Below are positions 27,253-63,591 of a stretch of 64,000 nt of DNA, piece by piece. The notes beneath the pieces were generated by a model. It saw nothing but the letters and a program-made list of their open reading frames with translations, did no database searches and was not told the DNA's origin. Both the position numbers and the translations under genes were made by a program. The stretch is from Humulus lupulus (Eukaryota > Streptophyta > Magnoliopsida > Rosales > Cannabaceae). Location of the stretch: NCBI RefSeq assembly GCF_963169125.1, contig NC_084802.1:119230903-119294902 (forward strand). The letters run 5' to 3'. The first letter of the stretch is position 1. Every line of letters begins with the position of its first letter.

Positions 27253-29126
27253 TGTTAGGGTTTATGCTTGAAAGCATATGTAAAGACATTTTATTCTGGA
27301 ATTTAATAATAATGTATTTTTCTTATAATTGAATATCTAGATTATTGTTTGAATATTAATATAAATATCAGAAAATTTTATATTTATTTATGAGAGTATG
27401 ATCATGTATGAGTACGAGAAGATTAAGATTATAAACAATGACTAGAATAATTAGCAGCATATTAAGTATGGAATCTTTAATGAATGGTTGCCAATACAAT
27501 TTACTAGGCATTCTTTGAATGCATGTGATTCCGAAATACTAATTAGGATAGACATCTTAATGAAGATACATATATAATTAGATTATATTTGACAGGACCA
27601 AGGTGAATTAATTTCTTTATAAACTCACTATTTTCTATAAAGACTAAATTCATATCAACATGATGATCATATATAGATCAGTCTAAATCATGATTAGTCA
27701 TGAACTCTTATTCATGTCTATTAGGTATTTTTATTCACTCATTAAGGTTTGTTTGTATATCAGGCTAATGACTTTTGTTTTGGAGATTCAATGGCATAGG
27801 TGGCTAGGAACATGTTCTTACAAGATTTGGAATCTAAACTTTTCTAACAGATCGTATACTAGTTCCCTTAAGGGTTAGTTCTGGATTTGAATAGTTATTG
27901 AGCTTAAGTTTGTAGTATGATTATAAATTAACTATTCACTGGTGAATTAATAGAGTGAATTAATAGTACTTAAGGAACAAAAGGCAATCAGAAGGATAAA
28001 ACGGTAATTTTTTACCAGTACTAATTTACGAACTATTAATTGGAGGACAAACTATATGAAGTGATTATATCAATGGACTACACAAGAATTTGGTAAATAT
28101 AATTCTATAATTACTAAGAGTGAAATTCCATATTTGTAGTGAAGTAATCATGGATTTAATAAATAAAATTATTTTATTAAAGAGTTTAATTAATAATCTG
28201 GCTTATTGGTGCTTAGAATTATAGGTACATGGTCCCCGAGTCATTTCTGTACTACACTATCTAGGGTGTGAATGTTAGTGATAAATTAAAAGGGAAAGAA
28301 CTAAATTGCAATGGAATTAATTTTCCAGGACAAAGATATAATTGTTGAATAATTGTATGTAATTAATTAATCAAATTAACTAATGTATTTTATATGAAAA
28401 TTGTATATTAGTGGATCAAAATATTAAATTGTTTTTAATTAATTAAAATTAATAGAGAATAATATTGTCTTATTATAAGATCATAATTAAATTATGTTTT
28501 ATAAGATAATGTTAATTTTGAATTAACTGATATTTATGCATATTTGAAATAAGACATTAATTTAAATAGATAAATATTTTTTCTTATTAAATAAAATAAA
28601 AATGAGTTACAATGGTTCAATTGTATCAGTTACAATTTGAATTATTTATTATTATGTAATTGGTATTTTAATTTAATTAAAATATTAATTACATAAATAA
28701 AACCTAACCCCAATCAAATTAGAGCTAGAATATATATAGTTATTTTCTAGGGTGTGTGACATAAGTTTTCATAAGCCTAAAAAATATATCATTACTTTTC
28801 TATTCTCTCAAAGAAAAGAAAATCCTTCTCCAAGTCTCTTATTGTTCTAAACATTCTACGTGCACATGCACATCCTAATGAATTGAGGATTGGCATGGAA
28901 GATCTTGGTGTGAATCTCAAAGTAAACAAGCAAGCATTAGATGTTCATTATTTTATACTAAATGATAGTGATGACACTTGATAGGATACAATAGGTATTA
29001 GATCGATCTTTTATGTGTTTAGATTTAATGTATATATATATATATTTGATCCTAGCTTGGTATTGGTGAAAATTAATTTTTTTAAAACCTCCATTGCACA
29101 CCTAATGTGTTATTTTCATACAAACA
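27253..29126. mobile_element. Solo LTR F (1874 bp), target duplication TTTAT
   Basis: It starts TGTTAGGGTTTATGC, ends CATACAAACA and is flanked by TTTAT at 27248-27252 and 29127-29131. It is related along its length to solo LTR E (33665-47416): both contain AAAGCAT.TGTAAAGACATTTT, GAATCTTTAATGAATGGTT and CAATGGACTAC. It has no internal region. A TA dinucleotide run lies near 29030-29046. The superfamily cannot be told from the LTR alone. Confidence 0.9.
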
Positions 29127-31805: not shown

Positions 31806-31810
31806 CACCT

Positions 31811-32425
31811 AGTCCACAAGTCACTTTTATTGATCTGTTTATGATTCTTGAAGAAATTGTTGATGACAATTTCTGCAGAGTTTTTGCATACAGAAAATCG
31901 ATCCCTTTAGTTGTACATTCCCCTTGTATTTATAGGAGAGTCTCATGGGCAATTTTGGGTAACCGTATATTAATATGGTAATTGAAAAATCTGGGTAACT
32001 TCCCATTTACATAAATATATGATTGCCTATTAAATTTATATTCGTTATATCAGGTAATAAATGCATAATAAAATATGGGCCTTTATGAGGCGTATAAAGA
32101 ATCTATGAGTCTTTTGGAATCCTTTACTCTGCGTCATGACCAGGCTTTCGCAAGCTGAACACTTCCTTCGAGTTGGGTGTCATAGGACTAATCTGAACTA
32201 ACATGGGTCGCATTCAGATTTTCACGAAGGAAAAGCATATATCGAACTAAGTTGTTGCCACAAGAAACAATCTGGAGACTATCGAGTTGTCATAAGCTAT
32301 CAAGTTGACTCAAGCTGCTCATTCCAGAGTTAGCAAAATGCTCTATATGTATGCTTTCTTCAAACGCTTGTCTGCCAGCTATACCCCACGCTGAGTAATT
32401 CAGCTCGTATTTTTTGGGTACAACA
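31811..32425 (-). mobile_element. 3' LTR of Tat3, second part
   Basis: It resumes with AGTCCACAAGTC after the duplication of solo LTR B and ends GGGTACAACA at 32425, matching 62968-63591. The joined LTR is about 765 bp, against 774 bp for the other copy. A minus-strand TATA box (complement of TATTTATAGG) lies at about 31927-31936. Confidence 0.9.
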
Positions 32426-33664: not shown

Positions 33665-35077
33665 TGTTAGGATTAATGCCCTAAAAGCATGTAAAGACAT
33701 TTTTTTGGTTTTAAATAAAAGTACAATTTTATTATATTTGAATGCTATAATTATTGTTTAAATTAATTATATAATAATATCAAGAAATTCCCTATTCATT
33801 CATGAGAATATGATCTTGTATTAGTACGAGAGAATTAAGATCATATATAGTGAATAAAATAGTCAGTAACATATTAAAGTAAGGAATCTTTAATGAATGG
33901 TTACTAGTACAGTTTGCTAAGCATACAAGATGTAAGTAATCTAGATTCGGATTACTCATGTGGATAGACATCTTAGTAAAGGTGATGTATAAAATAGAGA
34001 TAATATATGACAGGAACAATGAGAATTAATTATCTTAATAAACTTGTCGTTTGACGTAAAGATTTAATTCCTATCATAATACATGATCATTTGTAGATCA
34101 GTCTAAATCCTGAGTCTTCATGAACTCTTGTTTATGTTTATTGGATCTATTGATTCATTCGTTAAGGTCTCTTAGAATAATGAGGCTAATGACTTTTGAT
34201 TTGAAGATTCAATATCATGGAAGGCTGGGAACATGAATTATAACATTGGAATCCATGCTTTCCTAACGGATCGAATTATGGTTCCTTTAACTATTGATCC
34301 AATAGTTTTGTTTATTGGAACTTTTGATTCATTCGTTAAGGTTTCTTAGAATAATGAGGCTAATGACTTTTGTTTTGGAGATCCAATATCATGGAAGACT
34401 GGGAACATGAATTACAACATTGGAATCCATGCTTTCCTAACAGATCGAATTATGGTTCCCTTAAGGGTTGATTCTGGAACTGAATAGTTATTGAGCTAAA
34501 ATCTATAATTAGATTATAGATTAATTATTCACTAGTGAATTAATGGTACTTAAGGATCAAGAGGAAATTAGAAGGGTAAAATGATAATTTTGAATAGCTC
34601 TAATTAACGAACCAATAATGGAGAATAGAACTACATATATTGACTATATCAATGGACTACTAAAGAAAACTCTGTAAATATAATTCTATAAATACTTAGA
34701 GTGCAATTCCATATTTATAGTGGAGTAATCATGGAATTAATATATAAGATTATTAGATTAAAGAGTTTAATTAAAAATCTGGTTTATTGGATCTTCGTAT
34801 TTTAGGTCCATGGTCCCCAGATCATCTCTGTCCTATACTATCAAGGGTAAGGATGTCAAAAGAAATATTTGTAAAGAGAAAGGACTAAATTGCAAAGGAA
34901 TTAATTTTCCAGGGCAAGGAAATAATTATGTGATAATTATCTATAATTGATTAATTGTGAATTAATTAATTATTTGACTATATAGTTTTTATTATGAAAA
35001 ACTATGGGTTAAAATTAATATCAATCTTGTTTGGATTAATATAAAGAGAGAAATAATAAATATCTTATTTATAATAT
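33665..35077. mobile_element. Solo LTR E, first part, target duplication CCAGG
   Basis: It starts TGTTAGGATTAATGCCC after CCAGG (33660-33664). It is split at 35078 by Tat2 and ends at 47416, followed by CCAGG (47417-47421), for about 2.2 kb in total. It is homologous to solo LTR F. It contains a tandem duplication (34151-34461). No internal region remains. Confidence 0.9.
34151..34461. repeat. Tandem duplication within solo LTR E (period about 174 bp)
   Basis: TGATTCATTCGTTAAGG starts copies at 34151 and 34325. Both continue through AGAATAATGAGGCTAATGAC, GGGAACATGAATTA and CATGCTTTCCTAAC to the CGAATTATGGTTCC segment. Solo LTR F has a single copy of this region (about 27740-27870), so the duplication arose in the E lineage. 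Confidence 0.85.
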
Positions 35078-35669
35078 TGTTATCCAAAAAATTGGCATTG
35101 ATGACGTGGCAAGTGATCCCAGGACACGTGGCTGACACCTGGAAGAGCTCTGCTAGTGTATTGACCAGAAGACGTATTAGAAGCAGTAAGCTGCTCAGTC
35201 TTACCTGCGACCAGTCTGGTCGATGGTTCCGCATGCAACGTAATATTACTATAAAGATCTTTGTAAATCCCGAATTTAACTCACACAATCTCCTGAGTAT
35301 CCGGTTATTCAGGAGAGAATATCTGTAATAATCTTGTGTAATCCCCCTTGAGCCTATAAATAGAGAAAGATAGCTCAAGGAAGGGACTTTTGGCTTTTGA
35401 ATTATTTGAGACTAGAATAATTCTCCTTGGAATATTGTATTGTTCTTCAGAGGTTAGTGAAACTCATTGAACCCTTGTTCTTTGATCACTCATTTGATTC
35501 TTATATCAATAATAGTCTAAGTGGACGTAGGTCATTACCAGATCCAGGGGTCGAACCACTATAAAACATCGTGTTCTTATTACTTTTTGCCATTCGATTC
35601 TTGTCAACACATTCATTCACATCAAGCATATTCTGACTCCGTGTCAGTTGACCAAAATTTGGGTCAACA
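35078..35669 (+). mobile_element. 5' LTR of Tat2 (592 bp)
   Basis: It starts TGTTATCCAAAA and ends GGGTCAACA. A TATA box (CCTATAAATAG, 35353-35363) is followed by AGAGAAAGATAGCTCAAGG, the likely start region. Compared with the 3' LTR it retains about 47 bp near 35547-35593 (ending TTTTTGCCATTC) that the other copy lacks. Confidence 0.95.
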
Positions 35670-35692
35670 TTCTGGTGCTTTCATTGAGAGCT
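35670..35692 (+). other. Primer binding site of Tat2
   Basis: CTGGTGCTTTCATTGAGAGC follows the LTR after two bases. It is the same site as in Tat1 and, with one change, in Tat3. The tRNA is not assigned. Confidence 0.8.
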
Positions 35693-35717
35693 TGATTTAT
35701 CATTGTTGAGAAATTCA

Positions 35718-37850
35718 ATGGCGAAAACTGCAAGGAAAACTGGACAGGCGGCCGCCGCTGCACCGTCAAACCCGCCACCTCCTCCTCCTCCTGCAAGCGT
35801 GGCTGAGGATGAGCCACATTTAGATTTTGAGGAGGAAGAAATGGATGATGCAACGCTGAAGAGTACTCTGGGAGTGCTGCAAGAAGAGCTGGCTAATCTG
35901 AGAGCCAGTCAAGAGACAGCTGCCGAGGTTATGGCACGGCAGCAGGAGGAGATTGAACGGTAGCGCACGGAGTTAAGCGAAAGGCAGGCGGAGATGGACC
36001 GCCGCCAGAGTGAAGCAATGGTAGCCCTCGAGGTAGCCTTGCAACTGGCTAGGAATTAGGCCGCACCTGTTTCGCAGCTTGAGCAACCTGTCAATGGGCC
36101 ACCCCAGAGGGGTCCAAATCCTAGCCCACCAATCCAGCCCTCGAGTCCGCAAAGGCCCGAGCAGCCTCAGGTACCTCATGATGATGTCCCGCTGGACCCT
36201 GAGGCACAGTCTCCTTCCCAAGTTGGTCGCGGCAATCCCCCTCAACAGAGGCAGAATAGGACCGAGCATCAGCCTCGCAGTCCTAGACGCCGTAGGGGTG
36301 ATGGGCCAAACCTACCGAACACGGGTCAATATCCTCCTGGCAACAGGAGGAACTCAGAGTCAGGTTCTGCGGTCCGGTGTCCCCCACGGCATGATAATGC
36401 ATGGGGACACAACGACCAGTGCAGGCCGCCCTCTAACGCTCGGGACGCTTCAGCCAGGGATGGAAATCGAGAGAACAGTCAATCCCACCATAGCCAATCG
36501 AGGTTCAGAGATGGCCATGGATATAATGAGGCCGACTCAGGCAAGGGAAACGCTGGCCGTAGGAATGAAGAAAGAGGCAGAGGCGGGAGCTAGGAACCTC
36601 AAGATGACCAACCCAATAGACGGGATGCTGGGGGGCAGCCCAGGCAAAATAATGTCTTCAACCGGCTCGGGGGTAGCGAGCAGAGGAGAAGAGATGAGGA
36701 TTTGCGAGACATACTCAACGAGTGACATGGCGAGAACGTCCCCCCAGCAACAGAGGCTACAGCGATTCCTGCCGCTGTACAGGCCCAGATAGATGCCCTT
36801 AACCAGGCAGTGCAACAGCTGGTCGGGGGAAGGACATCTTATATCGACCACGATAGGAGGAAAGGCACTCCTTTCGTACAGAGGATAGCTAATGCAGAAA
36901 CTCCAAGCAAATTCAAAATGCCTACACTTCCGAACTTTGACGGGTACGGAGACCCAGTATCCCATGTCAATAAGTTTGAAATACAAATGGACATTCAGAA
37001 AGAGTCCAAAGACGCTCGGTGCAGGATCTTCCCTGCAACACTTTCTGAAGCCGTGCAGGAGTGGTTTTTTATGTTCCCTCTCGCAAGCATAGTTTCCTGG
37101 GAGATGTTCGTAAGGGAGTTCTACGGACAATTCTATGCAGGTCGTGTGCATCCGACCGAAGCAAACCAACTGGTTGAAATTCGCCAGCAGGATGGAGAAT
37201 CGGTGAAGGACTACATCCAGCGCTTTATGCGAGCAGCAGCTGGAGCAAAAACGGTGGGGGACGAAGGCAAAATGATGGCCATAACCGCAGGGGTTAGGCG
37301 TCGCTCCCCCCTCTGGAAAAGCTTCTGAAAGGAAGGAGTGAGAACTACCCAGGAATTCTTAGACTAGGCTAATCGTTACATTAAGCTCGAAGATTCCATT
37401 GCCGACGATGGAAAGCCTTCTAGAAAGGATAAGAAAGCAGTCGAGCCCGCCAAAGCCGCCAATGGGTCCAAACCTAACGGCAACGACAAAGGCAACGGGA
37501 ACGGCAATGGCAATGGCAAGAATGGTGGAAAACGGCCGTATAACGAGCCTTCCACCTCCGACAATAAACGAGCGAAGGGTAACCGTTATGAACCTCGGTT
37601 CACTAACTACACTGCCCTCATTGAGTCTCGAGAAGAGGTTTATCAGGCCACAAGCTCTAGTGTGCCTTATAAAAAACTTGGCCCCATTCGAAAGGATATT
37701 TCGAAGAGGGACACTACCAAGTTCTGTCATTACCATAACGACTACGGACATGACACCAACGAATGCAACCAGCTGAAAGACGAAATCGAGTTCCTTATTA
37801 GACAAGGACACTTGAGGAGATACGTACGGGCCTCGGGAAAATCCCAATGA
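35718..37850 (+). pseudogene. gag of Tat2
   Basis: It starts at ATG 35718 with MAKTARKTGQ and a poly-Pro stretch, then an acidic coiled-coil segment (LGVLQEELANLRASQE) and a long Arg/Asn/Gln-rich region. The capsid follows at 36890-37250 (LPNFDGYGDPVSHVNKF; SEAVQEWFFMFPL; FYAGRVHPTEANQLVEI). The zinc-knuckle-like FCHYHNDYGHDTNEC is at 37721-37765. In-frame TAGs at 35961, 36058 and 36590, a TGA at about 37326 and a TAG at about 37364 interrupt it; most fit a former CAG. The frame ends at TGA 37848-37850 (SQ-TGA), as in Tat1. Gag would form the particle that packages element RNA. Confidence 0.9.
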
Positions 37851-37916
37851 GAAACTCTGGGTAGCAACGAGCAGGCTCCCACGCGCTAACGCTCGCCACC
37901 CTTACAGCCTGGCCCC

Positions 37917-38648
37917 GTGACTGGCACACTCTTAACCATCTGTGGAGGCCCGCACCTTGCGGGAAATAGCGGAAAGGCCAGGGAACGATATGCTCGGACC
38001 TTGCGCCACGACCAGGACATCGAGATGATGACTGTTGAGGACCGTGAACCAAAAAAGGCTCGGTCAGACGAAGGCGAAATAACCTTCTCTGATGGCGATG
38101 CCCAACACGCCCGGTTCCCACATTCTGATCCACTGGTCGTGGACATCCAAATGGCCAACATGATGGTGAAAAGAGTGCTGGTCGATACAGGAAGTTCGGT
38201 GAATATCCTGTATAAGTCTTCGCTGGAACGGATGAAGCTGTCCATTAAGGACCTGGAGCCCTGCAACCAAATGATATACGGCTTCTCTAGAGAAGGACTC
38301 GTCCCCGCAGGATTGATCAGGCTACCAATAATGATAGGTACAGCGCCTGCTACAAGGACATTACTCGCCACTTTCGTAGTGATCGATTGTCCTTCGGCGT
38401 ACAATGCCTTCATTGGGAGGCCTATACTAGTTGATCTACGGGCCGTCATCTCTATGTGGCACTTAGCCATGAAGTTCCCAATGGACGCAGGAGTAGGACG
38501 CGTGTTGGGAAACCAGAGGGAAGCCAGGGAGTGCTATAACGCCTCAGTAATGAAGGCGAAAAAAGGAACATCAAAGAGCACTACCTCAGATAGGTTGCAG
38601 AAGGCGATTGATACACAAACCCAATCCGGTGACGAAGTCACCAAATAG
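37917..38648 (+). CDS. Aspartic protease of Tat2
   Basis: This continuous frame, in the same phase as RT upstream of its first stop, carries the intact retropepsin active site DTGSSVNIL (Asp codon 38184-38186). Downstream are LEPCNQMIYGFSREGL and AYNAFIGRPILVDLRAV, the typical Tat-type protease landmarks. It would cleave the polyprotein. There is no ATG at the domain start (the region begins LTICGGPHLAG after two stops), so translation from gag by readthrough or a repaired ancestral frame is implied. It ends at TAG 38646-38648, aligned with a TAG in Tat1. Confidence 0.85.
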   Translation: MTGTLLTICGGPHLAGNSGKARERYARTLRHDQDIEMMTVEDREPKKARSDEGEITFSDGDAQHARFPHSDPLVVDIQMANMMVKRVLVDTGSSVNILYKSSLERMKLSIKDLEPCNQMIYGFSREGLVPAGLIRLPIMIGTAPATRTLLATFVVIDCPSAYNAFIGRPILVDLRAVISMWHLAMKFPMDAGVGRVLGNQREARECYNASVMKAKKGTSKSTTSDRLQKAIDTQTQSGDEVTK

Positions 38649-40205
38649 GGTGTTGCCCAAAGTGAGGATAGAGACTTAGATCCTCACTTTGGGGATTTTG
38701 AAGAAAATGTTGGACCCGTCGAGGACCTGGAAGAGGTCCAACTCGACGAAAAAGACCCGACCAGAGTTGTAAAGGTCGGGAAAGACCTGGAGCCCACCAC
38801 GAAGCACGCACTGGTGGAATTTTTGCGGAAGAACCAGGAGGTTTTTGCCTGGTCACACAAAGACATGTCCAGGATAGATCCTACAGTTATCAGCCATGTC
38901 CTAAATATAGACAAGACTTTTCCACCCGTGTAACAAAAGAGAAGGCTGCTCGATAAGGATAGATCGAGAGCCTTAAAGGAAGAAGTTGAAAGATTAAAGG
39001 AGAATGGGTTCATCAGGGTGGCATTTTATCCATCGTGGGTCTCTAATCCAGTGCTGGTTCCCAAGCCTAACGGCAAATGGCGAACCTGCATGGATTTTAC
39101 AGACATCAATAAAGCCTGCCCGAAGGATTGCTTCCCACTCCCAAGAATCGACCAGTTGGTCGATGCTACTTCAGGACATGAGATCCTCTCGTTCATGGAT
39201 GCATATTCGGGCTACAACCAGATTAGCATGCATCCCCCTGATGGGGATCACACCAGCTTCCGGACCGATATAGGCTTATACTGTTATAAAGTAATGCCCT
39301 TCGGACTGAAAAACGTAGGTGCGACTTACCAACGGCTAGTCAACCACATGTTTAAGGAGCTTATTGGAGTAAACAAGGAGGTATACGTAGACGACATGCT
39401 GGTAAATTCTAAGAAAGCAGAAGGGCATGTGAAGGATTTACAAGAGTGCTTCGATGTATTGAATAAACACCAGATGAAGTTAAAGCCCCTCAAATGTTCC
39501 TTCGGAGTCGAATCGGGGAAATTCTTGGGGTTCATTGTAAATTCAAGAGGAATCGAGACCAACCCCGACAAGATAAATGCCCTGATTGACATGAAGTCGC
39601 CAGAAAGGATCAAAGATGTACAAAGTTTAACCGGGAGGATCGCAGCCCTAAGTAGATTTTTTTCGAAGTCAACAGACAAGTGCGTCCCTTTTTTCAATCT
39701 ACTTAGGGGAAATAAGAAGTTTGAATGGACAGGAGACTGTGAGCAAGCATTCCATGCCTTGAAAGCTCATATGGCACAGCCTCCCATCTTATCAAAGCCA
39801 ATAGAAGGAGAAACTTTGTTTATTTACCTGGCGATTACAGAAGTTTCTGTGAGCGCGGTGCTAGTACGAGAAGAAGAAGGCGTACAGAAGGCGGTCTACT
39901 ATGTAAGAAAAAGGCTGATCGGAGCAGAACTAAGATATCCACCAATCGAGAGGTTAGCATATTGCTTAATCCTGGCCTCTAGGAAGCTGCGCCCTTACTT
40001 CCAAGCCCATCCTATCACGGTTTTAACTGACCAGCCCCTGCGGCAAGTCCTCCAAAAGCCAGAGGCAGCTGGGCGATTATTAAAATGGGCAGTCGAACTA
40101 GGGCAGTTCGATATGACTTATTCACCGCGAGCGGCAGTAAAGGGACAAGTATTGGCTGATCTTATTGCAGAGTTCACAGAACTTCCAGACAACGAGCAAC
40201 GCTAA
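38649..40205 (+). pseudogene. Reverse transcriptase and RNase H of Tat2
   Basis: The region opens with GDFEENVGPVEDLEEVQL and is broken once by TAA 38931-38933 (PPV-stop-QKRR, where Tat1 has Gln). From 38934 it is open to the TAA at 40203-40205. The fingers and palm read GKWRTCMDFTDINKACPKD and SFMDAYSGYNQISMHP. The catalytic YVDD is at 39384-39395. The thumb and connection read SGKFLGFIVNSRGIETNPDK. RNase H (about 39800-40190) shows VYYVRKRLIGAELRYPPIER and HPITVLTDQPLRQVLQ. This is the longest intact pol segment in the window, and its active-site residues are conserved. Confidence 0.95.
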
Positions 40206-40832
40206 TCGCCTAGTTCGCCTGAGCCTCAAGAGAAAGCTCCTTCGTGGAAGTTATTCACGGATGGGTCATCCAACGAATCCCACGCAGGAGCGGGAGTGAT
40301 ATTGATAACGCCTGAAGGGCTTTGATTTCACTGCGCCATCAGGTTCGACTTCACCGCGTCAAATAATGATGCCGAATACGAAGCGCTCCTCGCTGGATTG
40401 AGAATGGCGAAAGATATGAGCATAAAAGGGCTTGATATTTACAGTGACTCACAGCTGGTCATGAACTAGGTTCTAGGAGAATATCAAGCGCGAGGCTTAA
40501 AAATGGTGGCCTACTTGAATAAAACAAAGGACTTACTAGCCCAGTTCACAGAGTACACCCTCCAGCAAATACCGCGGGATCAGAATTCAAATGCAGACGC
40601 CTTAGCCAAACTGGCGAGCGCAAAAGATGCTGACACCTTGAACATTGTGTCAGTAGAAAGACTGAGTGAGCCAAGCATACAAGCGGTTGAGACCAATATG
40701 GAGGTTCGAATGGAGGATACGTGGATGGCACCTTACTTGGAGTATCTGACGAACGGTGTGCTACTGGCCGATAGAAACAAAGCCAGAACTCTACAAAGGT
40801 GAGCCGCTAGGTACATACTGGTCGATGGTGTT
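40206..40832 (+). pseudogene. Second (archaeal-type) RNase H of Tat2
   Basis: Directly after the first RNase H a second RNase H-like domain reads WKLFTDGSSNESHAGAGVIL, NNDAEYEALLAGLRMAKDM, LDIYSDSQLVMN and, at the end, QNSNADALAKLASAKDADTL. The conserved acidic residues (FTDGSS, DAEYEA, YSDSQ, NADAL) are present. It is broken by TGA at about 40323, TAG at about 40468 and TGA at 40801-40803, each consistent with a former CGA or CAG. The domain is diagnostic of the Tat/Ogre branch. Confidence 0.88.
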
Positions 40833-41956
40833 ATGTACCGAAGAGGATATTCAATGTCACTACTCAGATGCGTTACACCAGAACAAGCTAAGGAACTCAT
40901 GAAAGAGGTGCATGAAGGCTTCTGCAGGGATCACGCTAGGGGGCAGAGTTTGGCAAACAAGATTCTGAGGCAAGGCTACTTCTGGCCAACTATGAACGAG
41001 GATTCGATGGAGTTTGTACGAAGATGCGATAAATGTCAAAAAATTTCCAAGATTCCACGAGCAGCTCCAAACGAATTGAAACAGATGCAAAGCCCGTGGC
41101 CTTTTGCGGTGTGGGGAATAGATTTGATTGGATCCCTACCTACAGGGAAAGGCGGAGTAAAGTATGCAGTCGTGGCAGTTGATTACTTCACCAAATGGGC
41201 CGAAGCTGAACCACTCGCCACCATAACGACCAAGAAAGTTCTTGACTTTTTCATCAAGAACATTGTTTGCTGCTATGGTTTGCCCCGAAAGATAGTTTCA
41301 GACAACGGAACCCAATTTGACAGTGACTTATTCACTAACTTGTGCGAAAGGCATGGAATTATTAAAAGCTTTTCTTCAGTTGCGCATCCCCAAGCAAACG
41401 GGCAGGTCGAAGCCGTGAATAAAACTCTTAAAGATACCCTGAAGAAGAGGCTTGAAGATGCTAAAGGGGCATGGCCAGAGCAGCGCCTGAAGTCCTTTGG
41501 TCGTATAGAACATCTCACCGAACAGCAACAGGTCATACCCCATTTTCCTTGGCCTACGAATATGAAGCTATGTTACCTGTCGAGTTAGATCCCCCCTCAC
41601 ATCGACGCCTAACAAACGACCAGGACCAGAACAGCCAACTAATGATGGAGTCCCTAGACTCAATTGACGAGATACGGGAGAAGGCCCAACTCCGAGTTGC
41701 TGCTTACCAGCAAAAAGTCGCCCGGTACTTTAACTCCAAAGTTAAAGAAAGAAAATTCAACGTCGGTGACTTGGTGCTACGACGAGTTTTCTTAAATACC
41801 CGCGACCCCACTGCTGGAGTACTCGGACCTAATTGGGAAGGACCTTACCAGATCGAAGAAGTCCTTCATCCGGGCACCTACAAACTTGCACGCCTAAACG
41901 GAGATCTCGTTCCACGTTATTGGAATGGAGAACACCTGTGCAAGTATTATCAGTGA
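40833..41956 (+). pseudogene. Integrase of Tat2 with one frameshift
   Basis: The zinc-binding domain HEGFCRDHARG...CDKCQKISKIP (about 40908-41055) is intact. The core has Asp (WGIDLIG, codon 41121-41123), Asp (SDNGTQF, 41301-41303) and Glu (NGQVEAV, 41409-41411). The last two are 36 codons apart, the normal D-x35-E spacing. A one-base frameshift at about 41485 (PEQR|LKS against APEVLWSYRTSH) splits it into 40833-41588 and 41471-41956. The C-terminal part reads VARYFNSKVKERKFNVGDL and LGPNWEGPYQIEEVL. No chromodomain follows. The stop is at 41954-41956. Confidence 0.94.
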
Positions 41957-42644
41957 ACAGTCCTTTTTAAAGGACTGGCTTGTATAAAATTCTACTTTTT
42001 ACAGGTTTTACGAAGAGGGTTAGCCACGTTGTATGGCTAATCGCTCGTATATGTAAGATTCTATTTTAGAATCACTCGTAAAGACATGTTTAGTCCATTT
42101 TTAATACGAGATTATAAGGGACTGTGCGCAGCCAGTAATTCTTGCCAACCTTTGTAAATTTATATTTACAAGTATTTGTTCATTACGTGTGTTGTTTTGC
42201 TGTATTACAAGTATTACTTTTTCACCCGAGCAGAAATGTTCGAACAGGTCATGGTCAAGGCAAGTGACCAAGGACCTAAAGCTCCTCGATCACTTGGGGG
42301 GCATATAAGGCACATCGATAGCAAAGCGTACCATGAGGTATGTAAACACATGAACAAAATGAGTGAAAGCATGCTAAGGAACTTAGAGTATTTTTCAAAA
42401 TTTATATTTTGTTAAATCAAGCCAAAGTACTATGCTAAGTTCGGTCATACGGACAAATGTTATAATAAATGAAAATGTTATAGCATCATGATGCAATCTT
42501 TTACACCGCAAGCATCACTGCTTGGATGTAACTGTTCAAATAAAAGGAAAAGTTTGCTTCCCATGCAGCAAATTCAAAAAAGTCATTGTCTTTACATCAC
42601 GACCCGTGGGTCATGTAATCAAAAGAAAGAAAAAATAATAAAGC
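41957..42644 (+). other. Spacer between integrase and the reverse-strand gene, with internal G-run
   Basis: This non-coding spacer aligns with 18741-19460 in Tat1 (CAGCCAGT.ATTCTTGCCA; CATTACGT.TG.TGTTTTG). At 42288-42307 it keeps GATCACTTGGGGGGCATATA, a second polypurine-like run far from the 3' LTR. It would also hold the 3' ends of two converging transcripts, gag-pol and the reverse-strand gene. The open frame 42176-42415 has no motif. Confidence 0.75.
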
Positions 42645-45239
42645 TCAAGAGGCATTGGGAGCAGGAGGGTCTTTATTAGCATTCTGATTGGTTGCGTCCT
42701 CAACGACTCCTTCTTCCTCTGCACCAGCAATGCTTGGGGAAGCAGGGATCCTTGCTCTGGCCTCATCTTCTGAAAGATAGCTGAAGTCGGCGCCCTGATT
42801 GTGTTTCCAAAAGTTGTAAAAGCACCGGAGCGTCGTCTTCTTATACCTTTCCAGATTCTTGGAGTTGTCAAGCTTCAGCTGCTCCACTTGGCTCTCAAGA
42901 GTGGCGATGACCTCGTTCGTGGACTTGAGCTCCTCGCCCAGTCTCTTGCATTCTCGAAATTGGACTCGGCTGGACTCCTGGTACTCCTCCCTCTACTTCC
43001 TAATAGCTTCCTTTGAAGCTTCAGCCTCCAATAGCTTCGTCACCGCGGCATCCCTCTGCTGAACCATCGCCTCCAACTCCTTTGCGTGCCTGGCCTCTGC
43101 AGCTGAAAGTTCTTCGGCTACTTTTACCTGGTACCTCTCGATAGCCTTTGCCCGAGCCTGTTCGATGGTGGCTTGGGTGCGGGTACGAGCAACAGTTGCA
43201 GACAGCAAAGCCTGGGGACAGAAGATAAAGTTAGAACCTGTTGCAAAGAATAAAAAAGTCTAAGGCCAAAGAGATAAGAGACACTTACGCTGGCTATTTC
43301 ATTTAGGGCCCTGTTCAGAATTTGGTCGACCCCCATACTCTCTGCCTCAACCATTGAATCCTTGACACGGTCGTTCTTCACAATGTGCGCAAGGCGGTCT
43401 TTGGCTGCTCGTAAGGCGCGGCTCGAGAGTTTGGCCCCAAGAGTTTCATCCCGCTTGTTTTGTTCCCTGCTGGGTGCAGCCGGAGGGTTTGTCAGAGTAG
43501 GAGGAGTCGGGGTAGGAGGAGTCTCCTTCTCAGCAGGAGCTGGAGGATGAGAAGAAGTTTTCCCAGTTGGCACGTCCTTGGAAGCTTCTGTTCCACTCTT
43601 TTTGGCAGGTCCCTGGCTTGTTTCGCCGTTGTGTCTCCTTGACGACTTTCGCCGAAGCTGAGGAACTTCCTCTTCCTCCTCAGCCTGGTATAGGTCGAAG
43701 ACGTTGGGAGTGGCCATATCTGCACACAAGTAAAAACATGCAAAGGGTAAAGATAAAGGCAGATGAAGACTCTTTATCAAACAGAAAAGAAGGTCACAAA
43801 GTTAATACCCGAGCTACAACTACTGGTCGCTATACTATTGACTCTATTAGTCATACACTCATTATCTGGCATGAAGAAGTCTGGCCCTAGATTTGGAGTA
43901 TATGTAAAGTTGCCTTCCCCGTCAAACAAGTGACAGGGAATTGGAAAGCTATTTAAAAGCAAAATAAGTTTACCGTTCTCATCAAAGGATTCCCCCAAGT
44001 CTACAACCGGCTCTTTGGCCTTTTGTTTCCCCTTGCCTTGGGGAGCAGAAGGCCTTTCTATGGAAGGATTGCCCGTGGGCTCCCTGATTGTAACCCCCGT
44101 CGACCTCCTTCGTGGAGGAGACGCAGGAGGTTGCTGCTCGGGAACCCCCTCGGCAGTGGCATCGGCTACCACGGGTCCCCTTGTTTCATGGCGAGGAGCC
44201 AGAAGGCAAAACAACCTCAAGTTTTTATCAGTAACCAGGGACTTGACGCTTTTTTCTGCGTCTGTCATCCTGGCCAATGCATTGGACCTCAACACCATGT
44301 CTGGTGTTGGGGTCGAACGTAACCATGGGCCTGAAAAACAAAGTATACTTTAAGAAAGATGAAGGAAATTTTGATGATTGAAAAGTATCGACCAGTAAAA
44401 CAACACTTACCTCCTCGAGCGAAGGCCAGGTTGTTGCTGGTCAGGTCCGGCGTAAGGAAGTACTCCTTGTTGTACTACCCCACGTTGGATATGTGCGTGG
44501 TGGCACTTAGGAACGTTCGGTTTGTCTCCTGGTGACAAAGATGGAAGAAGCCCGTCCCATACTGTTGCGGGTTGGACTTAAGGTCAAAGAGATAATTGAC
44601 CTCATGGGGGGTAGGCTCTGGCCAATTTTTAAGTTTGTACAGGATATAGAGTGCGGCCAGCATTCTATATCCATTTGGAGTAATCTGGAAGGGGGCGACA
44701 TCAAAATAATCGGCCACCCCCTGATAAAAAGGATGTAGAGGGAGGCTAGCCCCCGCCTCTATGTGATACCGAGACCAAGCACTGTATACACCTCCGGGGA
44801 GGTTAGCCCTTTGGTCTGCAGAAGGAATTTTGAGGTTGACCCCTGTGAGGGGATACTTCCTGAGATAGTTGGCAAGCATCCTGGGAGTCACAAGGCTGGT
44901 CGGGGAGATATACCACTCGACATTAGGCAGATTCTGATGGCGAGGGCGGGCTCTAGTTTGGATGTTAGGGTCAGGAGCAGGATTGTTTCGGCCACTGGTC
45001 GAAGGAACCCTAGCCTGTGAATCAGGCTGGGCAGGACGGTTTGGACTATCGTCGGATTCAGGTCTTTTCTTGCCTACAGATTTGGAACGAGCCATTTGAG
45101 GAGGAGAAGGACGAGGTCTGGACGAGGATTGAGAAAAAGGAATCTCGTGGATTCGGTCAGTCAGTTGTTCTTCGCCTTCGAGCAGCTGGGCGAGAAGGTC
45201 GTCGTCAATGGGCCGTTCACCTCCCCACAAATTTGGCAT
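42645..45239 (-). CDS. Four-exon gene antisense to gag-pol in Tat2, unknown function
   Basis: The gene starts at ATG 45239 (MPNLWGGERPIDDDL). Exons are 45239-44411, 44330-43809, 43719-43289 and 43211-42645. The introns of 80, 89 and 77 nt start GTAAGTGTT, GTATTAAC and GTAAGTGT and end TTTTTCAG, CTTGTGTGCAG and TCTGTCCCCAG. Joined length is 2349 nt (782 codons plus stop), and the phase is kept at all three junctions. In-frame TAGs occur at 44475-44477 and 42993-42995. Residues of about 107-254 carry the likely conserved domain (VEWYISPTS; RANLPGGVYSAW; FQITPNGYRML; PTPHEVNYLFDLK), resembling the Pfam group called putative gypsy type transposon. The middle is Pro/Ser-rich with basic clusters. 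The last exon is a Glu/Ala/Lys-rich coiled coil ending FWKHNQGADFSYLSEDEA. An acceptor-like TTCTGTTTGCAG just before the ATG suggests a 5' UTR intron. Role unknown. Confidence 0.82.
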
Positions 45240-45315
45240 CAAGGTCTGCAAACAGAAGAATGGGGAGGTGAGGATAGAGAATTTTTAAAGGCTTTTTAGA
45301 ATGGCGCTGGTCGAG

Positions 45316-45336
45316 TATAAAAGTCAAGCTTTTATA
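45316..45336 (-). promoter_or_regulatory. Palindromic TATA-like box upstream of the Tat2 reverse-strand gene
   Basis: TATAAAAG and CTTTTATA surround a 5-base centre, about 80 bases upstream of ATG 45239. The box matches that at 22085-22105 in Tat1 except for one central base, although the flanks have diverged. It is a candidate core promoter on the minus strand. Confidence 0.55.
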
Positions 45337-46039
45337 CAACAACATTCTAACAAAAAGCTAAATCTTTCTACACGAACAGTTTGAGAAACGGATCAAAGGG
45401 TGAATGTAACTCCTCTTAGGGTGGGAAAAACCTATTTTCCAACTAGCCTAAAGATTGAATTTTTACTTCGATTTTACTTCCTAAAAGCATGATCCCAACT
45501 ATTAAACTAACTCGTAACTCTTTTTCGCCTACAAGACATTCTACTCACAAGCATCTCAAACCAGAAGCAGATGAACTCAAACAGGCAACATACAGAAGCA
45601 TGCATCATGAAAATTTGAAGCATAAGGATTCGAAAACTTACCTAAAAGATGGTCGTGGAGATTGGAAGAGAGTCTTCGGAAATCAAGGAACTCTCGGACT
45701 GAGTCTTGAAAATGCAGAAGAACGGTCTCAGGAGAAGATTAAAGCTCTGGTTTTTAGGGTTTCTTGAGAAGGCTATGGCATGCGTAAAAAGAAAAAGGGG
45801 AAGTTTGGAGATGTTATATAAGTTTGTCTGTGGCATAAAAAAGGTGTAATCATCAGTTTCCCTTTTTCGAAATATGGGGAAGCGGAATAGCCGTCGAATT
45901 ATTACTGGGGAACAGAAAAGTCATGATTAGACAGGAGTAGGTTGCTTTTTCCAAGAACACACAAAGGGTTCTGACACGTATGGTGGGGTTACCGAAGAGT
46001 CATTCGCTCAAAAGTTTATTTATTGCTCGTAATAAATAA

Positions 46040-46053
46040 ACTAGGGGGGAAAA
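46040..46053 (+). other. Polypurine tract of Tat2
   Basis: ACTAGGGGGGAAAA directly precedes the TG of the 3' LTR, as expected for the plus-strand primer. The region between it and 45337 shows no coding motif; the open frame at 45489-45767 is probably chance. Confidence 0.85.
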
Positions 46054-46598
46054 TGTTATCCAAAAAATTGGCATTGATGACGTGGCAAGTGAACCTAGGA
46101 CACATGGCTGACACCTGGAAGAACTCTGCTAGTGTATCGACCAGAAGACGTATTAGAAGCAGTAAGCTGCCTAGTCTTACCTGCGACCAGTCTGGTCGAT
46201 GGTTCCGCATGCAACGTAATATTACTATAAAGATCTTTGTAAATCCTGAATTTAACTCACACAATCTCCTGAGTATCCGGTTATTCAGGAGAGAATATCT
46301 GTAATAATCTTGTGTAATCCCCCTTGAGCCTATAAATAGAGAAAGATAGCTCAAGGAAGGGACTTTTGGCTTTTGAATTATTTGAGACTAGAATAATTCT
46401 CCTTGAAATATTATATTGTTTTCAGAGGTTAGTGAAACTCATTGAACCCTTGTTCTTTGATCACTCCTTTGATTCTTATATCAATAATAGTCTAAGTGGA
46501 CGTAGGTCATTACCAGAGCCATTCGATTCTTGTCAACACATTCATTCACATCAAGCATATTCTGACTCCGTGTCAGTTGACCAAAATCTGGGTCAACA
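46054..46598 (+). mobile_element. 3' LTR of Tat2 (545 bp)
   Basis: It starts TGTTATCCAAAA and ends GGGTCAACA, followed by AATAT. It differs from the 5' LTR by about 12 substitutions and a small indel, and lacks about 47 bp after TTACCAGA (about 46512). A TATA box (CCTATAAATAG) is at 46328-46338. Confidence 0.95.
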
Positions 46599-46603
46599 AA
46601 TAT

Positions 46604-47416
46604 GATTTTTATTTATTTAATTTAAAATTGATATTTTAAGAAAGGTTTATTTTGAATTAACTAATATTTATGCTGGGATAAATATCTTGTCTTAAAAGTT
46701 GATTAAATAAACAAATGATAAAATTAGAGAAACCCTAATAGGGCTGGGCGATACACACTGCTCTATCAGTATGTGGCGCCTAACTCAGGGATACTTATCC
46801 CTGGATTTTGAATTTAAAATAAGTTTGTTTAATCAGTTATTTAATTATTCTTTTTAAATATGATTTAAATAAATAATTAAATAAAAATATCTAATCAGTT
46901 TTAATTTGAATTATATTTTAATTAAATAAATATTATTTAATTAGATTAAATATATTTATAAGTCTGATAGTACATGACTTTCAGAATAAGGCTTTATTAT
47001 TATTTTGAATAATAAAATCTAGACTCTCTTTCTCTAAAAGCGATAGTTTTTCTCGAAACCTAAAAACTATTCTAAACGTTCTCTCTATCAAAACTCTCTA
47101 GATCTCATGTGTTGAGTACATCTAGGGAGTCACATAAATCAACTTTTTGAATCCTACGTGCCCACACACGTCCTTGTGTGTTTGAGGATTGTTCTGGAAG
47201 ATCAAGGTGTGAGATCTCATAACACTGGATAGGTAGATCGTTGATTTATATAAAAATACTCAAGGACATTTGATAGGCTACAAGAGGTAATCCCTGATCT
47301 ATTTGTATGTGATTTAATATTTATATATGTGTACGACCGTGGCCGGTATTAATATTTATTAAAATGGGTCAATATATTCCACTGCGTACCTTTGATTTGA
47401 TCATTTAATAGCAACA
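46604..47416. mobile_element. Solo LTR E, second part
   Basis: This continues solo LTR E after the AATAT duplication of Tat2. It is AT-rich, with TCTCTAGATCTCATG and GATAGGCTACAAGAGGTA segments that parallel the end of solo LTR F (GATAGGATACAATAGGTA). It ends AGCAACA, followed by CCAGG. Confidence 0.88.
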
Positions 47417-62817: not shown

Positions 62818-63591
62818 TGTTGACACTATATTTTGGCAACAGGGGATTTAGAAATCCGACAATAGAGAGATTAGGCTTTTCGTATATCAAATGTATAAGA
62901 AATAGCAACAAAAAAAAGAGTGCAAAATGCTCACACGATTTTACGTGGTTCAATGGTTATAATCCACCTAGTCCACGAGTCACTCTTATTGATCTATTTA
63001 GGACTCTTGAAGAAATTATTGATGACAATTTAAGAAGAGCTTTTGCATACAGAAAATCGATCCCTTTAACAGTCCATTCCCCATGTATTTATAGGAGATT
63101 CTCAGGGAAAGTTTTGGGTAACCGTTCATTAATATGGTAATTGACGAATATTGGTAACTTCCCATTTTCATAATTATATGGTTTCCTATTAAATTTATAT
63201 CTGTTATATTGGGTAAAAAATGCATAATAAAATATGGATGTTTATGAGGCGTATAAAGAATCTCCCAGTCTTTTGGGATCCTTCATTGTGCGTCATGACC
63301 AGGCTTCCGTGAACTGAACACTTCCTTCAAGTTGGGTGTTGTAGGACTAATCTGAACAGACATGAGTCGCGTTTAGAGTTTCACATAGGCGATCTGGGCG
63401 ATGCATATCTCAAACTAAGTTGTTGGCGAAGAAGCGATCTGGAGACTATCTAGTCGTCATAAGTTGCAAGTTGACTCGAGTTGTTAACTCCAGAGTTAGA
63501 AAGATGCTCTATACGTATGGTTTCTTCATATGTTTGTATGCCAGTTGTACCCCGTGCTGAGTAATTCAACTCGTATATTTGGGGTACAACA
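62818..63591 (-). mobile_element. 5' LTR of Tat3 (774 bp)
   Basis: It runs from TGTTGACAC (62818) to GGGGTACAACA (63591), followed by TTGTT. It matches 29268-29417 plus 31811-32425, with moderate divergence. A minus-strand TATA box (complement of TATTTATAGG) is at 63086-63095. The frames inside (62820-63140, 63016-63225) are chance. Confidence 0.92.

Follow-up and report, generated by a model that had tools for sequence, protein, structure and literature searches.

The 64,000-nt stretch of the hop (Humulus lupulus) genome analyzed here, which we refer to as the window, contains a long terminal repeat (LTR) retrotransposon at positions 35078 to 46598, bounded by a pair of LTRs and flanked by a duplication of the target site; it is labeled a Tat/Retand-type element from the long region between pol and the 3' LTR and from the antisense TRP28-type gene found there. 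The antisense gene lies on the minus strand (45239 to 42645), between pol and the 3' LTR, and its frame runs from an ATG at 45239 through four coding exons to a TGA at 42647 to 42645 (Table 1). An original prediction had proposed four exons and three phase-keeping GT-AG introns antisense to gag-pol, and the start, introns, frame, and TGA were all confirmed. We think it likely that this is an antisense accessory gene (a TRP28-type antisense open reading frame [aORF]) of a hop Tat/Retand-type element, built like a plant RNA polymerase II gene and spliced. Purifying selection and intron positions common to diverged relatives both speak for the proposed spliced antisense gene.

Table 1. Positions of the antisense gene, its candidate upstream signals, and the parts of the host element in the window
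Feature	Positions	Strand	Remarks
Coding exon 1	44411..45239	-	829 nt; contains TRP28 (PF04195) stretch
Intron 1	44331..44410	-	80 nt, phase 1, GT-AG
Coding exon 2	43974..44330	-	357 nt
Intron 2	43720..43973	-	254 nt, phase 1, GT-AG; alternative donor at 43808
Coding exon 3	43289..43719	-	431 nt
Intron 3	43212..43288	-	77 nt, phase 0, GT-AG
Coding exon 4	42645..43211	-	567 nt including stop; Glu/Lys/Ala/Gln-rich
Candidate TATA box	45812..45821	-	TTATATAACA (gene strand); exact in 38/40 copies, other two keep TATATAA
Telo-box-like motif	45752..45762	-	AAACCCTAAAA; presumed 5' untranslated region (5'UTR) exon; exact in 33/40 copies
Probable 5'UTR intron	45246..45641	-	Donor AG/GTAAGT; acceptor TTTGCAG six bases before ATG
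5' LTR	35078..35669	+	LTR pair alignment
3' LTR	46054..46598	+	LTR pair alignment
gag-pol, several broken ORFs	36726..41956	+	ORF list and Pfam PF03732, PF00078, PF17919, PF17917, PF17921, PF00665
gag	36729-37325	+	Pfam
Reverse transcriptase (RT) and RNase H	38934-40202	+	Pfam
Integrase	40803-41585	+	Pfam

With the intron 2 donor at 43973, the spliced coding sequence is 2184 nt long (727 codons plus the stop). The T content of introns 1 to 3 is 47%, 38%, and 45%, compared with 16 to 23% in the coding exons. The plus strand reads the introns as CT...AC and GT-AG ends exist only in minus-strand RNA, so the introns can be removed only from a minus-strand transcript, as had been predicted. For comparison we used the window copy and 39 others, fetched with their flanks, which together are the best 40 of 6455 first-look candidates by exon 1 similarity. 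The two in-frame TAGs noted earlier lie at codon 255 in exon 1 (44477 to 44475) and at codon 612 in exon 4 (42995 to 42993). They are rare damage, because stops are present there in only 3 of 40 copies and in 2 of the 38 copies with letters at the site, the window being counted in both. Intact copies exist: 2 of the 40 keep the frame, are free of internal stops, and retain every one of the six splice dinucleotides.

Protein searches returned 3, 2, and 18 matches; in the first and third of these, scoring covered the 7991 and 7993 candidates, respectively, with the greatest word overlap. The 18 comprised 14 named hop models, 3 without a name, and 1 from Abeliophyllum (P0019; E = 5.4e-3). One relative is P0001 (LOC133828836; 732 amino acids [aa]), whose alignment spans 93% of the window protein with 32% identity. 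Its DNA (locus L070) needs two GT-AG introns, the sole solution in the ranges tried: one of phase 1 after residue 442 and one of phase 0 after residue 557. The second occupies the same place, in the same phase, as intron 3 of the window gene, within an ungapped stretch of the alignment (ILNRALNEIAS/ALL versus VLKRGLTQLMK/SLV). P0004 (LOC133830528), 31% identical to the window protein and 67% identical to P0001, has introns 2 and 3 at the same places and phases as P0001 in its DNA (L073). The position of intron 2 in the window gene matches that in L070 and L073, again with the same phase 1, but the alignment has gaps around it. At a third locus (L074), the frame breaks at corresponding places. 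An intronless relative, suggested by an open-frame figure of 800 aa, was rejected when a reading of the DNA showed separate exons.

The P0001 gene is likewise antisense to pol, about 955 bases from its end. The sister pol is 80% identical to that of the window in RT-RNase H and 81% identical in integrase. The antisense protein of this pair has diverged far more than pol, but two introns have been retained. Neither L070 nor L073 has intron 1. In P0011 (79%) and P0013 (67%), homology to the window protein ends at the intron 1 donor, beyond which both proteins read into GGK, that is, a GGTAAG-like sequence. Intron 1 was seen only in the lineage of the window copy and may reflect either a gain or a loss.

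Two further gene models touch this family. In the hop model P0003 (LOC133795475; residues 612 to 749), integrase is joined on one strand to antisense exon 3, and its homology stops within one residue of the intron 3 donor; rearrangement, nesting of one copy in another, or an error in the model is the probable explanation. P0018, annotated in hop as "probable plastid-lipid-associated protein 13," is 85% identical to P0001 over 13% of the latter and seems to be a host gene model that has taken in a piece of a sister antisense gene.

The relatives also bear on the origin of the gene. The original prediction had allowed for a captured gene, and a host gene could have been captured in antisense orientation, its introns surviving because the capturing RNA read the wrong strand; a plant-like gene with introns, a TATA box, and a 5'UTR intron would fit such an origin. 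Capture is nevertheless unsupported, and we judge it quite improbable. The one relative whose surroundings were seen (L070) is antisense to pol, P0003 is fused to pol domains, and P0001 and P0004, the two relatives searched in the genome, belong to repeated families (122 matches for P0001 and 178 for P0004, with 61 and 60 places scored, respectively). In addition, the available text of a survey of Retand elements (Vicient 2025; PMC11963269) reports no similarity to TRP28 outside transposable elements and finds the same arrangement both in eudicots and in Liliopsida, which would make any capture very old.

To characterize selection on the gene, we classed variants among the 40 copies by the number of copies that carry them. 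Singletons represent decay after insertion, whereas variants present in at least 4 copies represent changes transmitted by active elements. The main test did not use variants found in 2 or 3 copies, and the expected ratio of nonsynonymous (N) to synonymous (S) changes uses the same mutation spectrum. Shared variants (N = 122, S = 138) gave an observed/expected N/S of 0.44, and singletons (N = 824, S = 265) gave 1.07. The difference was significant overall (Fisher P = 1.7e-18, in a test that takes sites as independent although the copies are related) and held in exons 1 to 4 separately, with shared ratios of 0.26, 0.42, 0.49, and 0.61 (P = 5.2e-7, 0.0012, 3e-6, and 8.3e-6, respectively). Thresholds of 3 and 8 copies gave the same direction in all four exons. 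In wrong frames of the gene strand, the shared ratios were 1.07 to 2.53 (five tested: two in exon 1, two in exon 4, and one in exon 3); the ratios were 0.80 to 1.65 in frames of the 5'UTR intron and 0.46 to 1.26, on small counts, in frames of intron 2. Counted as distinct events, indels no longer than 60 nt and common to at least 2 copies numbered 6 in the 2184 nt of exon versus 28 in 1157 nt of intronic and flanking sequence. We conclude that the antisense protein was under purifying selection while its lineages were active, and the near-neutral singletons are as expected for dead insertions. The original prediction had been staked on splice sites that are conserved and a ratio of nonsynonymous to synonymous change (dN/dS) away from 1; the shared-variant ratio does not refute it, and the singletons are near neutral.

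This result also helps to separate a protein-coding gene from an antisense transcript that matters as RNA, for example as double-stranded RNA formed with the genomic RNA and feeding small interfering RNA (siRNA) silencing, with the protein incidental. A role of this kind was raised for antisense aORFs by Vicient and Casacuberta (2020; PMC7264820), and overlap would be expected between the antisense unit and the 3' part of the genomic RNA. An RNA-only function predicts no third-position bias, whereas we observed codon-level purifying selection in the spliced frame in all four exons, and the protein aligns with relatives over most of its length at 31 to 32% identity; we therefore assign this explanation a low probability. 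Chance open frames combined with chance splice signals in decaying DNA could account for a window copy with two stops, GT and AG being common, but they are hardly credible in light of the selection test and the intron places and phases shared with relatives 31 to 32% identical, which make the gene more than chance.

The same data bear on the length of the product. The original prediction gave 2349 nt and 782 codons, and an intron 2 donor at 43808, 165 nt downstream of 43973, reproduces those figures exactly; the donor at 43973 is the one that matches the splice position in P0001 and P0004, and the 782-codon length is probably wrong. A longer form spliced from 43808, as the main or an alternative mRNA, would be consistent with the 165 nt between the donors being open in 34 of 39 copies and with retention of the 43808 GT in 37 of 40. 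We regard it as unlikely, since these 165 nt show no clear preference for silent changes (N = 9 and S = 4 among shared variants; P = 0.73 by Fisher test; small counts), neither of their two shared indels is a multiple of three, and the longer form is without counterpart in the P0001 and P0004 models, both of which are spliced at the short-form position.

Several observations weigh against a spliced, protein-coding antisense gene. Only the two intact copies among the 40 combine these three properties of frame, absence of internal stops, and complete splice dinucleotides. The splice dinucleotides are kept in 35 to 39 of the 40 copies, against a mean of 0.86 for 93 other intronic GT/AG; because retention barely exceeds this background, near-identical copies prove little about splicing, and our case does not lean mainly on splice-site conservation among them. 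Both P0001 and P0004 are computer-predicted gene models, the copies were selected on exon 1 similarity, and the Pfam match of the window protein falls below the curated cut-off. One frame of intron 2 also has a low shared ratio (0.46; N = 9, S = 8; few counts), as does one plus-strand register each in exons 1, 3, and 4 (0.35, 0.49, and 0.61). We take the latter as the registers whose third positions coincide with those of the gene frame. They hold 11, 2, and 5 stops, respectively, and exon 3 is the weakest case because its low register has just 2. Finally, distinct indels show no clear preference for multiples of three. An argument from triplet-length indels in exon 3, where 58 of 85 are multiples of three, was abandoned, as inherited indels had been counted once per copy; the distinct events are 11 of 34.

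The spliced protein matches PF04195 (TRP28) with E = 2.3e-5. The Pfam search suggested earlier thus does find this family, but at 24.9 bits, under the cut-off of 26.2. Among the relatives, PF04195 is above the cut-off in P0002, P0005, P0007, P0013, and P0019 and sub-threshold in P0001 and P0004. The C terminus encoded by exon 4 looks helical and is probably a coiled coil, judging from its composition and from weak, sub-threshold matches of the relatives P0014 and P0016 to coiled-coil families. An AlphaFold2 model of P0007 (10-row alignment) had a mean predicted local distance difference test (pLDDT) score of 36.7, too poor for a fold search.

Upstream of the ATG, some signals fit the candidate promoter of the original prediction. 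TATATAA is present in all 40 copies, although its retention is weak evidence, as the surrounding DNA is also ~93 to 95% identical among copies. The nearby motif resembles a telo-box. An intron that was not part of the prediction probably lies in the 5'UTR (45641 to 45246), where its GT and its AG are each kept in 39 of 40 copies. On the acceptor side only, CTCACCTCCCCATT or a one-base variant, together with an AG, precedes the ATG in the relatives L070, L073, and L074. In the 1 kb before the ATG of L070, the one sister locus inspected for promoter signals, we found no telo-box and, as the only TATA motif, a TATAAA at -77. A promoter belonging to the antisense gene itself is plausible; its common use with L070 is not supported. 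At L071/L070, several CCGATCGGACC-like motifs, perhaps a degenerate short repeat, lie ~900 to 340 bases upstream of the sister ATG.

How a spliced antisense gene could work may be proposed by analogy with the maize gene23 described below. Its own promoter at ~45.8 kb would drive a minus-strand RNA polymerase II transcript, which would be spliced in the plant at four introns, one in the 5'UTR and three in the coding region. The product of ~730 residues would have its TRP28 stretch at the N terminus, followed by a proline-rich middle and by a C terminus that is helical and probably a coiled coil. The genomic plus-strand RNA would contain the introns as CT-AC, and they would therefore be copied in each round of retrotransposition. 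Most likely, the protein would be nuclear and act on the element's own DNA or RNA, and we infer that it may be a regulator of the element.

The host element itself is a broken, decaying insertion in the window copy. Its LTRs align over 592 columns, 47 of them gapped, with 12 mismatches in the 545 ungapped columns, and a 5-bp target duplication (AATAT) lies at 35073 to 35077 and 46599 to 46603. Pfam matches of six window ORFs give the Ty3/gypsy order of gag, RT, RNase H, and integrase; no protease was among them. As predicted, gag-pol is more broken than the antisense gene: RT-RNase H and integrase are split over three ORFs in the window, whereas in a sister element a single frame stays open for at least 1078 codons. 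Tat (Ogre/Retand) elements are distinguished by a further RNase H domain (aRH), which follows RNase H and precedes integrase (PMC6317226). In the sister element L072, the one scanned over this interval, RVT_3 lies at residues 516 to 635, between RNase H and rve; the matching stretch of the window is 40203 to 40802. The region from pol to the 3' LTR that holds the antisense gene spans ~4.1 kb (41956 to 46054), as in the Retand lineage.

Older repeats adjoin the element. Direct repeats at 27253 to 28390 and 33665 to 34975 (76 to 78% identity) resemble an older LTR pair, and short matches from 28484-28539 to 46618-46673 and from 28625-28689 to 46894-46959 suggest that the older repeat resumes past the insertion. 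The Retand-type element adjoins this older LTR element and may lie within it, having been inserted into the downstream copy. A tandem 167-nt unit (92%) occurs within the older LTR-like repeat at 34132 to 34472. Elsewhere, 31806 to 32105 and 62965 to 63264 form a 300-nt direct repeat pair, 87% identical and 31 kb apart, with neighboring matches near 29.3 and 62.8 kb.

Both the class of element and its antisense gene have been described before. What appears new is the conserved structure of several exons, together with the intron in the 5'UTR and an intron 1 specific to one lineage. In the available text of Vicient 2025 (PMC11963269), antisense TRP28 ORFs are reported in 97% of Retand clusters (all but two of those tabulated), with 104 antisense ORFs in 63 clusters, and DNA binding and regulation are proposed for them. 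The hop gene resembles these aORFs in being antisense, in lying between pol and the 3' LTR, and in having a TRP28 domain and no assigned function; some Retand clusters have further domain matches, e.g., to Smc or TolA. The difference is that the survey lists uninterrupted ORFs of at least 600 bp, whereas in hop the pieces form the exons of a single gene whose introns are conserved. A multi-exon gene could explain why there is more than one antisense ORF per element in such a survey; the Retand ORFs may likewise be exons of one gene, and the known protein would be extended from the TRP28 domain to ~730 residues. "Humulus" is absent from the main text of that paper. In the titles and abstracts surveyed, we recognized no description of introns in these antisense genes, and the word "intron" is absent from the available text of PMC11963269 and PMC7264820, although papers on gypsy extra ORFs, Grande gene23, and the 2006 Retand study might mention them. 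As a side observation, PF04195 heads the protein-domain lists in two tables on blackgrass extrachromosomal circular DNA (PMC10606437), which would fit recently active Retand elements.

More broadly, a single ancient gene with introns could underlie the extra antisense ORFs that Retand elements contain throughout the flowering plants, the ORFs being its exons. As an accessory gene carried along by retrotransposons, it would keep its introns because its coding strand is opposite to that of the genomic RNA. We offer this as a tentative reading, to which we give somewhat less than even weight. If true, intron 1 would have been gained or lost inside a mobile element, and intron turnover could be dated by LTR pairs. 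The authors of PMC7264820 called for searches for antisense and spliced transcripts in plant retrotransposons, and the exon-intron structure described here supplies exact junctions. It also provides a clean strand test, as a spliced copy of the gene could come only from antisense mRNA.

Other known systems can be compared with the hop gene. The RNA of HBZ, a gene of human T-cell leukemia virus type 1 (HTLV-1), is spliced. HBZ is a retroviral antisense gene encoding a nuclear protein (PMC11963269), but it belongs to an animal retrovirus, and its likeness to the hop gene is in working, not in descent. Closer in kind are two plant genes summarized in PMC7264820: gene23 of Grande in maize (Gomez-Orte 2013), an antisense accessory gene with its own promoter and a nuclear protein, which we liken to the hop gene by description; and ORF4 of Retand in Silene latifolia (Kejnovsky 2006), an antisense ORF with a transposase 28 domain and weak ubiquitous expression. 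Finally, the intron in gag-pol of Ogre (PMC6317226) is likewise a case of splicing in a Tat-type element, whereas the introns of the hop gene lie on the other strand.
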